From: Alphaproteobacteria bacterium
GTDB lineage: Bacteria; Pseudomonadota; Alphaproteobacteria; UBA7985; JAUIBT01
Direction of reading: 5' to 3'
Length of the DNA: 34,107 nucleotides
Assembly (NCBI GenBank): GCA_030428565.1
Contig: JAUIDR010000037.1
Location: 1-34,107, forward strand
The notes under the pieces: generated by a model
What the model saw: only the letters and a program-made list of their open reading frames with translations
Told to the model about the DNA's origin: nothing
The model's database searches: none
Part shown: piece after piece, positions 8,574 through 17,539 of the stretch
Numbering within the stretch: the first letter of the stretch is position 1
How the letters are laid out: every line of letters starts with the position of its first letter
Translations under genes and position numbers: made by a program

Positions 8574-11500
8574 CTAGCGAGACTCGGCGTCACCCGGCGT
8601 CAGGTCCAACACCTCGTAACTGTCTTTGTCGAGCTGGCGCGCAGCTAGGTCCAACAAATGGCGGTGATGCGTGAAATATATGACCTGCTGGCGCTCGCGG
8701 CGCTCTGCCAGCACCGAAAGCGCCCGCGCCGCGCGAGTGTCGTCATACTGCACCAACAGATCGTCGCAAATCAGAGGCAGAACGCCCGCCGCTGTGCGGA
8801 GCTGTTCCAGGCCGTATTGATCCAAGGCTGCCAGGCGCAAGCTCAAAAATAGCTGGTCTTTGGTGCCCTCACTCAACGCGCCCAACTCCTTGTCGTCGCC
8901 TAGGTGATCGCTTGTCCAAAAGTGCGGCTGGCTGTCGTCGCCGCGCCGTTGATCGACCTGTTGATAGGCACCAGCGGTCAGCTGAGAAAAGGTGCGCGAC
9001 GCGGCGGTCAACAGATCATCTTGTTGCTGTTCTAAAAAGCGATTGAGGCTCCGCCGCAACACCCGCGCTTGCAGTCCAAGGTCCAAGTATTGGGCAGCCG
9101 CTTGGCGCAACGCCTCAAGCTTGGCCGCTCGCTCAAATCGCAGATCCCGCGCGCCGCCTGACTCCTTGAGCGTCTTGAGCGCCTGACGCTCGACCCCTTC
9201 GGCAGTATGCGCCGCGCGCAAGGCCTCATCTTGTTCCTGATAGCGCTGGCTAAGGCCCTGTCGCGCGCCCTCCAATGCCTCGCCATCTTGCCATCGTTCC
9301 AGCACCCCGAGAGCATCGAGCGCGCGGCTTTGCTCCTCGATGCGGGCCTCTAGCTGACTGGCCTCGCGCAAAGCGCCCAGCTCGCTCCAAGATTGAGCCA
9401 GCAAGTTAGAGCGTTGTTCGGCTTGTTGGTGTTGAAGGTTCTTCTGATTGCCAAGGTCGCGCTGGGCGCGTTCGATCGCCATTTGCAGGCGCGCTCGCTG
9501 GTCGCGCGCTTTAGTCTCCTGTGCGAAGGCTTCGTGCAACAGCGCCACGGCGTCGGCGGGTTCCAAGCCCACTCCGATATTGAGCCCAGCAGCTGTGTCA
9601 GCCAAGGCGCGCAAATCATCGGCCTGCGCGGCAACGCGCTGTTGATACCCCTGCCAATTGATGCGCGCCGCTTCTGCTTGTTTCAAATCACGCAATGCCT
9701 GCGCGCGCTGCTTGAGCCATGCCCGCAGGCCGCCGGTTGCCGCCGCCCCCGCATAGCCCAATGCCTCGGCTCGCTTCTCCAATTCTAGCCAATGTCGCTC
9801 TTGCGCTTGCCAAGCGCTAAGTTGCTGTTGCCAAGCGCGCCAGGTGGGATCAAAAGCCTGTACCGCCGCCAACAAAGTTAAGCATTGATCCAAGGCTCTG
9901 GCGCTATCCGACCGATCGAGTTCGGGCAGGCTGTCTTCCAGTGCCACGCCTATTTCTGTGAGCAACTCGGCCTCGTTGCGCGTCAAGGTCTGGCGGCGCT
10001 TTTCACTGGCCGCCACCTGTAGCTGCGCGCGGCTCTGACGGTCCAAGGCGGCTTGCCATGCGCCCGCTTGGCGCTCAGAGCGCGCATAGGCGTCCGCGCT
10101 GCGATCCGCTTCGATCTGCGCCACTTCGAACTGGCGCTGCAAGGCAGGCTGGTTCAAGTCGCGCTTCAAGTCATCCCAAAGCTGGTCGCGTTGGCGGCGC
10201 GCCTCAGCCAGGGCCTGGCCATCCAAGCCCGCGCCTTGATCCTTGAGCTGCTGGCACGCGATCTCGGCCTCCTCTAGAGCCCGCTGCGCAGCCTTGGCTT
10301 GGGTGGCGATTTCGACCGCCTCTTGAGCGTAAAGTGCGCGTTGTTGCTGCCAGGATGCCAGCCGCTCGGCTAGTCCCAATGCCGGGTTCAGCAAGGTTTC
10401 AATCTGCGATCCCTGCAAGACCCGCAGGCCCGCTGGCAACTCGGGTTGCTCGGGCTTGTCTGGCAGATTGCTAGTTGCCTCCAAGGCTTCTTGCAGACGC
10501 GAGAGCGCCGCTTCTTGGCTGCGCAAGTGCTCGGCTTCGGCGGGCGCAATCTCCTCCGATTGGGCTTGCTGCGGCCTTGCATCCAGCAGCGCGCGCCAAT
10601 CGCTCAACTTTTGCGACAGACCGGCCAACCCCTGACCGTCGGCTTGCTGGCGTTCTTGATGCAGCGCCCAGAGCCCGTCATTCAAGCTGAGCTTTTGCTG
10701 TTCTTGTAACAAAGCTTGCAAGGCAGATTCTTGTTGTTTGATTTCACCGGCCAGAGCCGAGAGTTGTCGATCCAAAGCCTCGACCTTGTTCAGGTCATCC
10801 CGGCTCAACACGGGCAGGCCCGGATAATCGGACTGCAAGGCGGCCAAGGCATCACGCAGATCCTGCAGCTTGGCACTTGCCTCCAGCCGTCTTGCGTCGC
10901 GTGACAGCACCTCTTGCTCAGTTTTGGTCTGACGGCGCGCGCGCTCCAGGTCCGCCGCGGCCGCCCTTGCGTCCTCATAGGCGCGTTCTTGAGCGCTCCA
11001 AGCCTGCCCGCTGAGCGCTTGCTCGCGGATTTTGTCATCCAAGTCCGCCAGCTCTTTGCGCAAGGTCGCGATGGTCTGGTTCTTGCCCCGCTCTTTGAAA
11101 AGCGCCTCTGCCTCGCTTTCAAGGCGCTTGCACTGCTGTTCGATCTGTTCTCCCAGCAGGGCCGCACCCAGGGCTTGGCCCGCGTTGGCATCACTCGCCA
11201 AGACCCGTTCGGCCTGTCGACGCAGGCGCTCGCCGTCGAGGGCAAACAGCTCCATGAATAGTGCGCGCTGGCCTTTGGAGGGCAACCAGTCGTCTGCGCC
11301 CAGCTTTTTACGATCGAGTATCCCGGTGTGGGACCTCTGGATTTCGGCTATGTCCTCGTCGGCGCCCTTGGAAGATAGCCAGCCCGTAACCTTCAGCTTC
11401 GACTTGCTCCAGGCCTTCTCATAACTGACCGCGGTTCGCTGATCCATTAGCCCGAACAAAAAGGCCTCAAGCGCAAAGAGCGCGGTCGATTTGCCGGCTT

Positions 11501-11609
11501 CATTGGGACCATAGACCAGACTGAGCTTGCCGGGCTTGGCGAAATTCAGCAGTTTATCTTCAAAGTGGCCGTAGGCATGCAAGCGCAGCGCATGAATGTG
11601 CATAGTCAC
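8574..11609 (-). CDS. yhaN: YhaN-like AAA ATPase (SbcC/Rad50-type DNA repair protein)
   Basis: A 1011-residue SMC/Rad50-like ATPase. The N-terminal ATP-binding half carries Walker A GPNEAGKS (34-41) in VYGPNEAGKSTALFALEAF. The middle, about residues 180-860, is Gln/Ala/Arg/Glu-rich coiled coil. The C-terminal half has an ABC-type signature, LSEGTKDQL (about 912), and Walker B LPLICDDLLV (about 944), followed by the H-loop-like FTHHRHL. This split-ATPase design and the adjoining YhaO-like nuclease match the Bacillus YhaN/YhaO pair and resemble SbcC/SbcD, so a role in DNA end or structure processing is likely. The GTG start at 11609 overlaps the yhaO stop (GTGA). ATG 11603 gives the family-like N-terminus MHIHALRLHAYGHF and may be the true start, with GGAGG 10 nt upstream. 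Confidence 0.9.
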   Translation of the reverse strand: MTMHIHALRLHAYGHFEDKLLNFAKPGKLSLVYGPNEAGKSTALFALEAFLFGLMDQRTAVSYEKAWSKSKLKVTGWLSSKGADEDIAEIQRSHTGILDRKKLGADDWLPSKGQRALFMELFALDGERLRRQAERVLASDANAGQALGAALLGEQIEQQCKRLESEAEALFKERGKNQTIATLRKELADLDDKIREQALSGQAWSAQERAYEDARAAAADLERARRQTKTEQEVLSRDARRLEASAKLQDLRDALAALQSDYPGLPVLSRDDLNKVEALDRQLSALAGEIKQQESALQALLQEQQKLSLNDGLWALHQERQQADGQGLAGLSQKLSDWRALLDARPQQAQSEEIAPAEAEHLRSQEAALSRLQEALEATSNLPDKPEQPELPAGLRVLQGSQIETLLNPALGLAERLASWQQQRALYAQEAVEIATQAKAAQRALEEAEIACQQLKDQGAGLDGQALAEARRQRDQLWDDLKRDLNQPALQRQFEVAQIEADRSADAYARSERQAGAWQAALDRQSRAQLQVAASEKRRQTLTRNEAELLTEIGVALEDSLPELDRSDSARALDQCLTLLAAVQAFDPTWRAWQQQLSAWQAQERHWLELEKRAEALGYAGAAATGGLRAWLKQRAQALRDLKQAEAARINWQGYQQRVAAQADDLRALADTAAGLNIGVGLEPADAVALLHEAFAQETKARDQRARLQMAIERAQRDLGNQKNLQHQQAEQRSNLLAQSWSELGALREASQLEARIEEQSRALDALGVLERWQDGEALEGARQGLSQRYQEQDEALRAAHTAEGVERQALKTLKESGGARDLRFERAAKLEALRQAAAQYLDLGLQARVLRRSLNRFLEQQQDDLLTAASRTFSQLTAGAYQQVDQRRGDDSQPHFWTSDHLGDDKELGALSEGTKDQLFLSLRLAALDQYGLEQLRTAAGVLPLICDDLLVQYDDTRAARALSVLAERRERQQVIYFTHHRHLLDLAARQLDKDSYEVLDLTPGDAESR

Positions 11610-12829
11610 TCGTCCTCCGGCGCGCCGATACGGCCATAGCTAAGAGCCTGCGACAGGACAGTGGCAGGGTCTTGGTCGCCCAGCGCCTCACCGATTTTAG
11701 TGAGCGTGATCTCCTGCCCCAATGCGCCCAAAGATCGGGCCAACGGTTCGCTCAATTCTTGCAGAGATTGGCTCAGGTCGTCAGCGCCGACCAAAGCCGC
11801 CATAGCCCGCAAACTCTCGTCTACATCCAGTTCAACCGCTTGGTCGCGCGCCTGGAGTCGCACGGCCTCTATCAAGACCCGCCCGTCTAGAGCGCCGTCG
11901 AATAGGCTCTGGAATTGATCCATGACAGCGTAGCGCTGCGCGTATAGCTGCGGCTCGACCTGATTGAGCTGGAGGCGACAGGCATAGCGCTGCGAACGCC
12001 CCTCGTTAATCAGCGTCTCCAATTTGCGGCGAATGAGGCGTTCCAGGTCACTGTCAGATACCAGGCCGCGCGCGTCGATTGCCAACCGCGTCCATTCAAT
12101 GTTGGAGGTCTGGAAAAAGCGGCCTTGGGGCGCTTGGCCGGGGCTTATCTCCACGAGGTAAGCGCCCTTGACCCCTGTCTCGTCGATCGCACGGCCTTGT
12201 GGCATACCCGGATTGACAATCAAACAAGCGTCCTGGCGAAACTCCTTGAAGACGTGCGCATGACCCAGCGCCCAATAGTCATAGCCCTTGGCGAAGAGAT
12301 CGGCGGGAGTACAAGGTGCGTAGGGGCCACTGGGCTCCAAGGCAGTGTGCAAAAGCCCCAAATTGAGCGCGCCCGCCACCGCTGGCGGATAATCCGATAT
12401 CTTGAAACCGGCTTCATCTTCCTGGGCGTAGGACCAGCCGTGAACCGCGACCTGGTGCCCGCCCATTTGGAGCAACTCGCTCTGAGGCTGACCCGGCAAG
12501 AAGGCGTGGACATTGGCTGGCAGCAGACCGCCGATGGCTCGGTTGGCCGCGTCATGATTGCCCTTGATGAGAAAGACAGGAATAGCAGCCTCGGCCAGAC
12601 GCTGCATTTGCTGATTGAAAAAGACCAAGGGGGCGCTGTCCTGCAGGTCACGATCATAAAGATCGCCAGCGATGAGCAAACAATGAACCTCTTGCTCTAA
12701 ACAGGTATCAACAATACTGATTAAGGCCTGCCGCGAGGCCTCGCGAAACGGCACCGCGTGGCTCGCCACCCCGGCTGGGGGGCTATCCAAGTGCAAATCG
12801 GCGCAATGGACGAAGCGAAGCGGGGTCAT
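11606..12829 (-). CDS. yhaO: YhaO-like DNA repair exonuclease (calcineurin-like phosphoesterase)
   Basis: A 407-residue SbcD/Mre11-type metallophosphoesterase. The metal-binding motifs appear in order: CADLHLDSP (D11, H13), LIAGDLYDRD, IKGNHDAANR, and a later GHAHVF. The length is close to Bacillus YhaO. It is expected to act as a two-metal DNA nuclease with the ATPase encoded immediately downstream. Its ATG at 12829 overlaps the pxpC stop by four bases (ATGA), and its stop overlaps the yhaN start, so translation of pxpC, yhaO and yhaN appears coupled. The C-terminal third, after the phosphoesterase domain, is where SbcD-like proteins carry DNA- and partner-binding regions. Confidence 0.92.
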   Translation of the reverse strand: MTPLRFVHCADLHLDSPPAGVASHAVPFREASRQALISIVDTCLEQEVHCLLIAGDLYDRDLQDSAPLVFFNQQMQRLAEAAIPVFLIKGNHDAANRAIGGLLPANVHAFLPGQPQSELLQMGGHQVAVHGWSYAQEDEAGFKISDYPPAVAGALNLGLLHTALEPSGPYAPCTPADLFAKGYDYWALGHAHVFKEFRQDACLIVNPGMPQGRAIDETGVKGAYLVEISPGQAPQGRFFQTSNIEWTRLAIDARGLVSDSDLERLIRRKLETLINEGRSQRYACRLQLNQVEPQLYAQRYAVMDQFQSLFDGALDGRVLIEAVRLQARDQAVELDVDESLRAMAALVGADDLSQSLQELSEPLARSLGALGQEITLTKIGEALGDQDPATVLSQALSYGRIGAPEDE

Positions 12830-13821
12830 GTTCCGCTCACCACGCCGCTGATAAGATTGGCGGAAAGCAGGCTTGTATTACTCATGTCCAAACGCAGCGG
12901 TAGATCAGCACAGAGACGGTCCAAGGCCTGCGTTTCAGCCAAGACTGCCGCTTGCGCTTCTTCGACGCTGACCCAGCTAAACCGAAGGCGGGTGCCAGGC
13001 AGGCTCTGAACGAAGCGCGGCAAGTCACAACTGACGACGGTTGCGATCTTGGTATATCCGCCGGTTGTCTGGCGCTCGGCTAGCAAAATGATCGGCTGGC
13101 CGTTGGCAGGCACCTGAACGCTGCCCATGGCGATGCCGTCCGATGCGATATCCGCACTAACTTTGTGCTGTAGTGCCGGGCCTTCTAGACGGTAGCCCAT
13201 GCGGTCACACAAGCTGGTCAGTTGATAAGGCTGACTGACCAGGGTTTCAAGAGCGGCGGGATCAAAGTCCTGATCCTGCGGCCCCGCCACCAAGCGGATT
13301 GGCTTATCGTTCACCAACAAGGCGCGATCCGGCTCAATGTAGCGCAACGGCCGCCCCTGCTCACCGGCTGGGCGCAACGCCAAACGATCACCTGCGGCGA
13401 GCAAACGACCCTTATGGCCCCCCAAACCGGCGCGAATGTGGGTTGCTTGCGAACCCAACCAGACCGGCGCATCCAGTGGCTCAGCGAACGCCAGGTAGCC
13501 GATGGCATGGCCGCGCAACGGGCCAATCTGCAGGGTCTCTCGGGGTTTTAGCGTCAGTGTCTGAAAGGCCGCGTGCCCGGAACTGGGTTGTGCTTGTCCC
13601 GCCACAGCCAGCGTCACCGGATGATCAAGTGCCCGTAAGCTCGGCCCCATGCCCCAAAACTCGATGACGGCTTGGCTGAGCGGCGCGCCCACCAGCGCGT
13701 TGGCGATCTGCGCGAGCCGTGTGTCCATGACGCCGGACGGGCCGATACCTTGCGCCTGGTGCCCCCAGCGGCCCCGGTCTTGAATGCTGGTGAGCGGTCC
13801 AGGTTCGATGATTTCGATCAT
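12826..13821 (-). CDS. pxpC: 5-oxoprolinase subunit C (KipA / biotin-dependent carboxyltransferase-like)
   Basis: The 331 residues cover the KipA/AHS2 domain (carboxyltransferase subdomain C/D type). The N-terminal signature GPLTSIQDRGRWGHQAQGIG leads into PSGVMDTRLAQIAN, the best conserved part of the family. Further on come the SDGIAMGSVQVPANGQPIIL block and QTTGGYTKIATV. PxpC works with PxpB and PxpA as the ATP-dependent bacterial 5-oxoprolinase that opens pyroglutamate to glutamate. The ATG at 13821 overlaps the pxpB stop (ATGA), and the stop overlaps yhaO. PxpA (LamB/YcsF family) is not encoded in this window, so either it lies elsewhere or the pair acts on something else. Confidence 0.93.
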   Translation of the reverse strand: MIEIIEPGPLTSIQDRGRWGHQAQGIGPSGVMDTRLAQIANALVGAPLSQAVIEFWGMGPSLRALDHPVTLAVAGQAQPSSGHAAFQTLTLKPRETLQIGPLRGHAIGYLAFAEPLDAPVWLGSQATHIRAGLGGHKGRLLAAGDRLALRPAGEQGRPLRYIEPDRALLVNDKPIRLVAGPQDQDFDPAALETLVSQPYQLTSLCDRMGYRLEGPALQHKVSADIASDGIAMGSVQVPANGQPIILLAERQTTGGYTKIATVVSCDLPRFVQSLPGTRLRFSWVSVEEAQAAVLAETQALDRLCADLPLRLDMSNTSLLSANLISGVVSGT

Positions 13822-14570
13822 GCTGCCGCCGCTCCTGCATGCCCGTCCAGTACTTGGTAGCCGCGCGGATCGGCAAGCAAGGCCTCATAGTCGTCGCGCG
13901 AAATGGCTTGAAAGCGGATGAAATCGCCTGGCGCCAAAAGGCAAGGAGCGGCATCATTCGATGGATCAAACAAGGGCAAAGGGCAGCGGCCCAAAACGTG
14001 CCAACCGCCCGGTGATTGCTTAGGGTAAATGACCCCCATAGTGCTGGCAATGGCAACCGATCCGGCGGGCACCACCGCACGCGGCGATGCACGACGTGGC
14101 AGACTTAGATCTGGATCGAGGCCGCCCAAATAGGGCGCGCCTGGCATGAAGCCCAACATATAGACCTTAAAATGGGAGGCCTGATGCTTGGCCAGCACCG
14201 CGTCAGTGCTGAGCCCTTTGGCCTCGGCGACCGACGTCAGGTCCAATGCAAATTCGTCATCGTAGCAGACCGGTAGACAAAGGTGACGCCCACCATCATC
14301 GCCTTGATGAGCGCCCAGGGCCGCCAGCTCACCCTCAATCAAGGTGCAGAGCGCTGCATAGCTTAGCTGGCTTGAGTCGTAATAGATCAGCAAGGCGCGC
14401 AAACTGGGAACCAAGTCACGCAGCCAAGTTGGCGCTTGTTTCTGCAGATCTTGATACAAGGCCATAACGCGCGCATTCGCCTCAGCGTCTAACGCCATAT
14501 CCGCCGCCTGACCAAAGGTCAAAAGCAGGGCTTGATCACCGGCCGGATGAAAGCTGTAGGGCTGTTGCAT
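13818..14570 (-). CDS. pxpB: 5-oxoprolinase subunit B (KipI/AHS1 family)
   Basis: A 250-residue KipI-type protein. It begins with FHPAGDQALLLTFG, the family's opening strand. It contains the hallmark MLGFMPGAPYLGGLDPDLSL, then PRAVVPAGSVAIA and the SPGGWHVLGRCPLPLFD segment. It should pair with PxpC in a complex that uses ATP to hydrolyse 5-oxoproline. The ATG start at 14570 is the first gene of the four-gene minus-strand run, and the 272-bp gap upstream would hold the operon promoter. Bacillus KipI also inhibits a sporulation kinase, a role not expected here. Confidence 0.93.
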   Translation of the reverse strand: MQQPYSFHPAGDQALLLTFGQAADMALDAEANARVMALYQDLQKQAPTWLRDLVPSLRALLIYYDSSQLSYAALCTLIEGELAALGAHQGDDGGRHLCLPVCYDDEFALDLTSVAEAKGLSTDAVLAKHQASHFKVYMLGFMPGAPYLGGLDPDLSLPRRASPRAVVPAGSVAIASTMGVIYPKQSPGGWHVLGRCPLPLFDPSNDAAPCLLAPGDFIRFQAISRDDYEALLADPRGYQVLDGHAGAAAA

Positions 14571-14842
14571 AGCGTCAGCCTAGGCAGACACCATAGCGCT
14601 TGCAAGCCTACACCGCACAGCGCCTCACAAGAAAATTGCCGCTGCAGAAAAGGGGGCTAGTTGACCAGGCCTGCGCCAAAATTCCACATCACATTTCCGC
14701 CTTATCTGCGCGCAAAATAAAACTTCAGGTTGCAATTTGCGTGCAAATGGCATTAAACAAGCAGCTCCTGCGGCCCCTGCCTCGCCGCGCGAGCGCGCGC
14801 GTCTTGGCTCTTCATTTCAACCCCCGCAGCCCTTGCGATTTT
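14571..14842. promoter_or_regulatory. Divergent promoter region between pxpB and the FAD protein gene
   Basis: 272 bp separate two divergently transcribed units and should hold both promoters. A short dyad, TTGCA (14730-14734) and TGCAA (14742-14746), lies about 100 bp before the FAD gene start and could be a regulator site. I could not assign reliable -35/-10 hexamers. The plus frame is open back to about 14600, but that stretch does not resemble protein of the family. Confidence 0.35.
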
Positions 14843-16672
14843 ATGTATTCTTTGGATTACGAGGCAGATGTTACGGTCATTGGCGGGTCGGCGGTCGGCC
14901 TAGCCACCGGCTACGCCCTGGCTCGCGCCGGGCTGCGCGTTTGCATACTGGATCGCCAGGGCCCCGGCCAGCCCCACCCCAACACCCCGCCCGAGCCGAT
15001 CGGCGATATAGCCATTCGCTTCCTAGCCAGCTTGGGCTTGGATTTTTCCCTGTCCAACGGCGAGCGCATCAAATCCTACCAGTTCAAGAATCGACAAGAA
15101 GAGATCTTGCTGGATTTGACCTTGAACGAGCGCCAAGCAGAAGCGCACCAACAGGTCATGATCTCGGCCAACGAGTTACGCGACGCTTTGATCGAACGCA
15201 TCAAGGGCAATCCGCGCATCACCTTACGCGCGGGGCATGCAGCCTATGACCTGCAACTCGATGAAGAATGGGCGTTTGCACTAGGTGAGACCTATGACCA
15301 GCGCCAATTCTACGTGCGCAGCCTGTTTGTGGTGGATTGCGATGCGAGCTTGTCGCTGGTCAATCAGACCATAAACGCGCCGGTCAAGGCCCTGCGCCGC
15401 CCGCGCACTTGGCTGTCAATCTTGCTGGAAGCCCCTAGCCCATCGCTGCGCTGCCAAGTTAGCTATTTTGAAAACCGCCCGCTGATCCGCGTTCCGCTGG
15501 GCTCAAAATATCAGCGCTGGACGCTGGCCGCCGTTTCTGGCGATCAACGCGAAATGCTGTCATCGAAAGGCTTCATCCTGCGTTTGTTGGAACAAGTGGC
15601 CGGTATCAAGGGCAGCGCTATTCGGGGCGTCTCGCTGCAAGACTACCCCATGACCATGCGCGAGAAGCTGTGGGAGCACCGCACCGCCCTGATCGGTGCG
15701 CCGTCGATCCACTATAGCGATGACCAAAGCTGGTTGGGTGATTCAGCGTTGGACACCGGTTTGGGAGACGCCGCCGCGCTGATCTGGCCCTTGGCTGGCA
15801 TCTTTACGGGCGGCCTGACGATCAATGCACTCAGGGTCTGGGAACAAAAGCGACTTTCACACCGCACCACCCGCGCCGAGCGTCACCGCAAAGCCGCCGA
15901 CATGCTGTTTCGCCAGCCAGGCGGCGCAACCTTGGGCAAAGTCGCCGAGGCGACCAACCGCATCAGCCGCCTATTGCCCATCAAGAGCGCCAAAAAGACC
16001 GGTATCGCAGGGCCGAGTGAAGCGGACCTTCGCCGCCTAGTCACCGAGCCCAACTTCTTGCGCGCTGGGCCGTTACTATTCAACGCCGGCAACACGGGCA
16101 TGCCCATTCCCACCGCGCGCATCGTCGCCGCTCTGGATGAAAACGGGCAAATTGTGCCCGACTTGGAGAGCTTCAACGCCTACCCCATCCAGTCCGGCCG
16201 CCTCGATAAGGTGCTGCCGCTGGGCTATGTCATCATGACCTTGGGCTATGACCCCGAGCAAATCTTGCCCGAAGAAGCCGTCGAATTCTGGAAGGCACTC
16301 AATGTCACCATGTTGCGTATCAACCCGCAGTCGATCGGCGCACGCCCCAAATCGGTCTGCGATGCAGACGGTCGCCTAGCCGAGTGGATTCGATTTGGCC
16401 AGCCGCAGAACCGCCAGGACTATTCCATGGTTCTCGTCACACCCGAGCGCTATTGCGCGGCCTTGTTCAGCCCCGCCCAGTCCTTTGCCCTGATCGAGCT
16501 ATTTTGCCGAGCCTACGGCCTTAATGTGCCCGACTTTGTCGGCGATACTCCCAAGATCTCGGTCATGCCTCTGGTCGATGAGCCCGAGGATGACAAACCA
16601 ACCTTGTGGAAAAAGATACGAACCTATGCGGAAAAGCACGCCCCGACGCAATTTGGTCGCAAAAGCTCTTAG
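14843..16672 (+). CDS. FAD-dependent monooxygenase-like protein (phenol hydroxylase/MhpA type, divergent)
   Basis: From ATG 14843 the protein has 609 residues. It opens with a Rossmann FAD-binding motif, VTVIGGSAVGLATGYALARA (GGSAVG at 14-19), and an acidic residue, D37, at the end of strand two. The middle has LFVVDCDASLSLVNQ (162-175), matching the DG-motif region of PF01494 hydroxylases. The third motif region reads ALIGAPSIHY (282-291) followed by DTGLGDAAALIWPLAG, in place of the usual GDAAH...NxGxxDA; the key Asp of GD is Ala. The last ~180 residues (from about FNAGNTGMPIP to VLVTPERYCAALF) resemble the thioredoxin-like C-terminal domain of MhpA and phenol hydroxylase. The chosen start fits the family but lacks a clear ribosome site. 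Substrate unknown; activity uncertain. Confidence 0.75.
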   Translation: MYSLDYEADVTVIGGSAVGLATGYALARAGLRVCILDRQGPGQPHPNTPPEPIGDIAIRFLASLGLDFSLSNGERIKSYQFKNRQEEILLDLTLNERQAEAHQQVMISANELRDALIERIKGNPRITLRAGHAAYDLQLDEEWAFALGETYDQRQFYVRSLFVVDCDASLSLVNQTINAPVKALRRPRTWLSILLEAPSPSLRCQVSYFENRPLIRVPLGSKYQRWTLAAVSGDQREMLSSKGFILRLLEQVAGIKGSAIRGVSLQDYPMTMREKLWEHRTALIGAPSIHYSDDQSWLGDSALDTGLGDAAALIWPLAGIFTGGLTINALRVWEQKRLSHRTTRAERHRKAADMLFRQPGGATLGKVAEATNRISRLLPIKSAKKTGIAGPSEADLRRLVTEPNFLRAGPLLFNAGNTGMPIPTARIVAALDENGQIVPDLESFNAYPIQSGRLDKVLPLGYVIMTLGYDPEQILPEEAVEFWKALNVTMLRINPQSIGARPKSVCDADGRLAEWIRFGQPQNRQDYSMVLVTPERYCAALFSPAQSFALIELFCRAYGLNVPDFVGDTPKISVMPLVDEPEDDKPTLWKKIRTYAEKHAPTQFGRKSS

Positions 16673-16939: not shown

Positions 16940-17539
16940 ATGCCCCGCCCTTTGATCGTCATCGCTCTGGAACAAGAAGCCGATGTCATCGCCGACACCT
17001 TTGATGTGGTGATAACCGGCGTTGGCAAGGTCAATGCCACTCTTGCTCTGACCGCCGCGCTAGAGGCACGCCGCGCGCAAGACCCAAACGCTCTGCCGCC
17101 CTATGTGCTAAACATCGGATCCTGCGGCGGCCATAAGGTGCCTTTGCATCAGATTTTGCCTGTCAGCCAGTTCTTCCAAGCCGACATGGACGTTAGCCCG
17201 CTGGGTCTGGCAGTCGGACAGACCCCGTTTGAGGACGGCCCCGCCGAACTCTTTCCCAGCTTCGACCTGAGCCAAACCGCTATATCCGAGGGCCTAAACG
17301 ACGCCCTGCCCTGTTTTACCGCCGACCGTTTCACGACCCAATCGCCGGTCGATCACGCTTGCCTGTTCGACATGGAGGCCTACGCCCTAGCCAAGGTCTG
17401 CCGCCACTACGCTCTGCCCTTTGCTGCGCTGAAATACGTCACTGATGGCGCCGATGAAGCGGCCGCGAACCACTGGCAAGATAACTTGGCCTCGTGTAAA
17501 GCTGGGCTGACCCACTTGCTCAAGGAGCTGGACGCATGA
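16940..17539 (+). CDS. 5'-methylthioadenosine/S-adenosylhomocysteine nucleosidase-like protein (PNP/UDP family)
   Basis: A 199-residue nucleoside phosphorylase-fold protein, shorter than the ~230 residues of E. coli MTAN. The residues that act in MTA/SAH nucleosidase have counterparts: E11 in VIALEQEAD (E12 in MTAN), the M145-E146 pair in FDMEAYALA, and D169 in VTDGAD. It would split an adenine nucleoside into adenine and a sugar. The overlapping downstream gene encodes adenine phosphoribosyltransferase, which would convert the adenine to AMP, so the pair makes a compact salvage route. Exact substrate (MTA, SAH or another nucleoside) cannot be fixed from sequence. GGAG lies about 14 nt before the ATG, a wide spacing. 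Confidence 0.8.
   Translation: MPRPLIVIALEQEADVIADTFDVVITGVGKVNATLALTAALEARRAQDPNALPPYVLNIGSCGGHKVPLHQILPVSQFFQADMDVSPLGLAVGQTPFEDGPAELFPSFDLSQTAISEGLNDALPCFTADRFTTQSPVDHACLFDMEAYALAKVCRHYALPFAALKYVTDGADEAAANHWQDNLASCKAGLTHLLKELDA

Follow-up and report, generated by a model that had tools for sequence, protein, structure and literature searches.

A genus-wide pxpBC–yhaON operon candidate in a small order of Alphaproteobacteria

The ATP-dependent 5-oxoprolinase is encoded by pxpABC genes that are described, for example, as pxpBCA in Escherichia coli and as pxpTABC in Corynebacterium glutamicum (PMC13274462), and the enzyme prevents 5-oxoproline build-up in Bacillus subtilis (PMC13274462). The yhaONM/SbcE cluster of Bacillus, in which SbcE is YhaN, is a putative double-strand break repair cluster that responds to peroxide, and its yhaO and yhaN are listed with the H2O2-induced genes of the LexA/SOS group (PMC3896406). 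Given this peroxide/SOS response and the role of 5-oxoprolinase in B. subtilis, a stress link between the two systems is imaginable. Both systems are represented in an alphaproteobacterial window (the whole stretch of DNA that was analysed, 34,107 nucleotides), where pxpB, pxpC, yhaO and yhaN follow one another on the minus strand. The pxpBC–yhaON arrangement is a real, tightly packed operon candidate that extends throughout a genus; a sister family has it in looser form, and it is ordinary in kind.

The four proteins are assigned as follows. PxpB (13818–14570, minus strand; 250 amino acids) is 5-oxoprolinase subunit B with a CT_C_D domain. It matches PF02682 (8e-64) and TIGR00370 (147.2 bits against a cut-off of 145.55) and is 47% identical to E. 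coli PxpB over 126 amino acids. PxpC (12826–13821, minus strand; 331 amino acids) is subunit C with a CT_A_B domain. It matches PF02626 (1e-71) and, above its cut-off, TIGR00724, shares 36% identity with E. coli PxpC and reaches 193 bits with the narrower PxpC equivalog NF045499, below the cut-off of 500. The C-terminus of PxpC is intact and carries an LISGVV motif common to its relatives, and the genome contains a single PxpC copy. YhaO (11606–12829, minus strand; 407 amino acids) is an SbcD/Mre11-like metallophosphoesterase that retains all Mre11-type metal motifs (DLH, GDLYD, GNHD, LLH and GHAH) and is matched by SbcD models only below their cut-offs; its counterpart in the relative G002 has a longer N-terminus. 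YhaN (8574–11603, minus strand), encoded in tandem with yhaO, is an SbcE-like SMC-type ATPase of 1009 amino acids when read from a conserved ATG at 11603. Its AAA_27 head domain matches PF13514 (1.5e-36), and its Walker A (GPNEAGKST), signature (LSEGTKDQ) and Walker B (LPLICD) motifs are present. A CxxC zinc hook, which is a canonical feature of SbcC, does not occur in the 1009 residues, and its absence is expected of the YhaN/SbcE type rather than of SbcC. By PF13514 profile matches, the genome has one clear YhaN-type ATPase; two other matches span only about 30 of the model's 206 positions, and one of the two, at 22.3 bits, is just over the cut-off. The gene identities that had been assigned from the letters alone agree with these family matches, and each corresponds to an open reading frame at the coordinates given here. 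Purifying selection appears to act on all four genes: between congeners, pN/pS is well below 1, with synonymous sites near saturation. The fastest-changing of the four is yhaN (8574–11603), which shows 53–63% identity between congeners versus 84–94% for the flanking genes.

The genes are packed with almost no space between them. The pxpB stop and the pxpC start overlap in an ATGA at 13818–13821 (minus strand), which is conserved in three congeneric species and in G004, a genome of the sister family. The pxpC stop and the yhaO start overlap in a second ATGA at 12826–12829 (minus strand), which is conserved in the three congeners. The sequence-only reading had described 4-nt overlaps at all three junctions, and these two hold. 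The third, at 11606–11609, depends on a GTG start that is found in the window only and that would lengthen YhaN to 1011 amino acids. In both congeners, yhaN starts at an ATG and the gap after the end of yhaO is 2 or 3 nt; in the window, the first position of the AAA_27 match coincides exactly with the ATG at 11603. Given these two observations, the third overlap is likely not real, and the yhaO/yhaN junction is likely a 2-nt gap (11604–11605, minus strand). Among 178 same-strand neighbours in 335 kb of this genome, a 4-nt overlap is also the commonest spacing, with 17 cases, and thus carries no special message. The same window contains a further 4-nt overlap of the ATGA type at 17536–17539, between a nucleoside phosphorylase-like gene (16940–17539) and an open reading frame of 166 amino acids.

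A promoter-like sequence, CTTGCA-N17-CTAGGC, lies directly before the pxpB ATG (14578–14606, minus strand) at the same position in all three congeners, and its function is putative. The three species share CTTG-N20-TAGGC at −36 to −8 of pxpB, and among the four upstream regions scanned, no other promoter-like site keeps one position across the three species. The end of the −10-like element lies 7 nt ahead of the pxpB ATG, and the transcript may thus have almost no leader. A sigma-70 consensus scan returned no site against 1.4 expected, a result that carries little weight in alphaproteobacteria. The best Shine-Dalgarno match of yhaO extends to only 3 of 6 positions, and those of pxpC and yhaN to 4 to 6 of 6. 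Such a weak yhaO site fits translation of yhaO by ribosomes that terminate at pxpC. Given the two overlaps kept in three species, the lack of intergenic space, the fixed promoter-like site before pxpB only and the weak yhaO Shine-Dalgarno match, a single message with coupled translation is plausible for pxpB-pxpC-yhaO-yhaN. Alternatively, the order of the genes may be a positional accident in which yhaON is expressed separately from its own promoter inside pxpC, with no operon in practice. Promoter-like matches are indeed scattered over the 3' end of pxpC, and the consensus predicts alphaproteobacterial promoters poorly. However, none of these matches occupies a conserved position in the three congeners, the yhaO ribosome site is weak as expected if yhaO relies on pxpC translation, and the pxpC/yhaO overlap is conserved in three species. 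We consider separate expression unlikely.

Upstream of pxpB lies a divergent gene for an FAD-dependent monooxygenase (14864–16672), a distant relative of 3-(3-hydroxyphenyl)propionate hydroxylase models. The monooxygenase is 94% identical in the relative G001, a degree of conservation far above that of the pxp and yha genes beside it. Between this gene and pxpB, a block at 14711–14748, ATTTGCACGCAAATTGCAACCTGAAGTTTTATTTTGCG (minus strand), is well conserved in G001 and partly conserved in G002, and it may be a site at which a regulator of the monooxygenase gene or of pxpB acts.

The pxpA gene, which encodes the third subunit, is located elsewhere. The sole PxpA (LamB/YcsF) copy of the window's genome is on another contig (C68), and PxpA is likewise single and on a separate contig from pxpBC in both congeners. 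The pxpA locus has an adjoining acyltransferase gene and a nearby permease gene, with the same nearest neighbours in the congeners. The clustering of pxpA, pxpB and pxpC, which is usual and not essential, is thus not found in the three genus members. Since PxpA, PxpB and PxpC are all encoded, the 5-oxoprolinase is complete but split over two places, with two of its three subunits coming from pxpBC, and it is predicted from the sequence to be an ordinary ATP-dependent enzyme.

The distribution of the gene order was followed through 11 genomes of the order and through the class Alphaproteobacteria. The four genes, their order and their flanks are all shared by the two congeners, and the whole neighbourhood is syntenic in the genus. 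Strict adjacency of pxpBC and yhaON occurs in this one genus only. In the sister-family genome G004, a divergent pxpA is followed by pxpB-pxpC-MFS-AI2E-yhaO-yhaN, all running one way, and this is the only one of the order genomes compared in which pxpA adjoins pxpB. A second sister-family genome, G006, has MFS-AI2E-yhaO-yhaN running up to the contig end. The window's genus contains no orthologues of the sister family's MFS and AI-2E genes, only paralogues of 23–25% identity. The loci of the two families also differ in their flanks, and their YhaO proteins are approximately 40% identical. In another family of the order (f2), PxpC and PxpA are lacking and YhaO was not found either.

Outside the order, a full YhaO and a stand-alone PxpC occur together in seven of 385 class genomes sampled (G025, G045, G092, G206, G347, G355 and G387), and in none of the seven are pxp and yhaO linked, the genes being on separate contigs or 60 kb or more from each other. 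No pxp gene is found beside yhaO in 18 class loci, and none is adjacent in 80 YhaO loci across phyla; in one of the 80 (Heyndrickxia, Bacillota), a PxpB reading frame lies approximately 9.4 kb away with other genes between. Adjacency in unrelated lineages, as expected of a conserved functional operon, was thus not observed in these loci. The sequence-only reading had proposed a survey of gene order and held that confinement to this genome or a few relatives would tell against the association, and the survey gives essentially that outcome: strict adjacency in one genus, a loose form in the sister family, and neither linkage in the seven genomes nor adjacency in the 80 loci. Two other arrangements were considered and set aside. 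An AI-2E transporter gene with yhaON as a conserved module is confined to the sister family, with no AI-2E homologue in the 80 and 18 other loci, and a phage-borne unit is unsupported, as viral contigs gave no close YhaO relative.

The linkage in both families suggests an ancestral juxtaposition, and pxpBC and yhaON probably lay close together by the time of the order's ancestor. Could the two pairs instead have joined independently in the two families, a convergence that would suggest selection? YhaO trees do not group the window's family, which sits on a long branch, with the sister family, and two genes separate the pairs in the latter. However, an AU test on the 47-row YhaO tree does not reject a single clade of the two (p-AU 0.283), and the YhaO tree is weak because of long branches. 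Moreover, both families belong to one order, and the four genes do not differ between them in relative order or orientation. Independent joining therefore appears highly unlikely, and ancestral juxtaposition is retained here. Its persistence was compared with a local baseline of reciprocal best hits between approximately 0.34 Mb of this genome and 1.23 Mb of G004. Seventeen of 38 other close co-directional neighbours (approximately 45%) are also kept within 6 kb, and all close co-directional neighbours give 22 of 43, including five of five from the pxp-yha locus; these figures are a lower bound since only part of G004 was read. Retention near the local baseline needs no special selection, although joint retention in two families with different flanks could also reflect selection for co-expression.

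In G004 (L024, 13923–15203), a ChaC gene and an HhH-GPD glycosylase gene lie right after yhaN and convergent to it. Proteins of the ChaC family convert glutathione to 5-oxoproline. ChaC was considered as a conserved neighbour and rejected, since it is absent from the window's locus and the copies of this genome are on other contigs.

Do the two pairs form a functional stress unit? Such a unit would co-regulate 5-oxoproline clearance, as part of glutathione/gamma-glutamyl turnover, with DNA break processing, both being needed under oxidative damage. The H2O2-induced SOS genes of Bacillus, the ChaC and glycosylase genes of G004, the retention of the linkage in two families and the E. coli locus, in which nei comes after pxpBCA and ybgI, whose annotation is radiation resistance protein, comes before it, are all consistent with it. 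However, the association is restricted to one order and its retention is near the local baseline; pxpA is outside the unit; and ChaC is not at the locus of the window's genome and also occurs in genomes that lack pxp. A functional stress unit is quite unlikely on this evidence, and the earlier proposal that the operon joins glutathione by-product removal to DNA repair finds no support in so phylogenetically narrow an association without ChaC at the locus. We give still less credence to the stronger statement that, in this order, 5-oxoproline clearance and YhaO/YhaN DNA processing would be one regulated response to oxidative glutathione loss kept by selection for co-expression. Should the stress unit prove real, glutathione turnover and the processing of DNA breaks would be linked.

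We propose, as the reading that is fairly probable, that pxpBC–yhaON forms a composite operon specific to this lineage, that its two pairs are functionally unrelated and that yhaON was drawn onto the pxpB promoter. The two pairs would have come into tandem in an ancestor of the order. This genus may then have lost the MFS and AI-2E genes or never have received them, or the sister family may have gained them. After that, pxpC and yhaO would have settled into the ATGA junction, with yhaO starting at the pxpC stop. The yhaON genes most likely depend on the putative promoter before pxpB for transcription and on ribosomes finishing pxpC for translation, and the two pairs most likely keep their separate usual jobs, the conversion of 5-oxoproline to glutamate and the processing of DNA ends or structures. 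On this view, the locus adds to the lineage-specific operons that combine unrelated gene pairs, here with a looser gene order preserved in a sister family, and it cautions against inferring a common function from tight overlap and a shared message.

Compared with the pxpABC systems of E. coli and C. glutamicum (PMC13274462), the locus has the same PxpB and PxpC families, co-directional genes with overlapping ends and a PxpA in the genome, but pxpA is on another contig, the unit has no transporter and yhaON follows. With the Bacillus yhaONM/SbcE cluster, the locus shares a gene for a YhaO phosphoesterase and, directly after it, one for a YhaN-type ATPase, whereas here no yhaM is seen, pxpBC precede and the pair has no space for an upstream region of its own. 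In the E. coli pxpBCA-nei locus, too, 5-oxoprolinase genes have a DNA-repair gene as their neighbour. The E. coli repair gene, nei, encodes a glycosylase (endonuclease VIII), which differs in kind from the nuclease-ATPase pair found here, and this difference suggests that pxp-repair neighbourhoods arise more than once.
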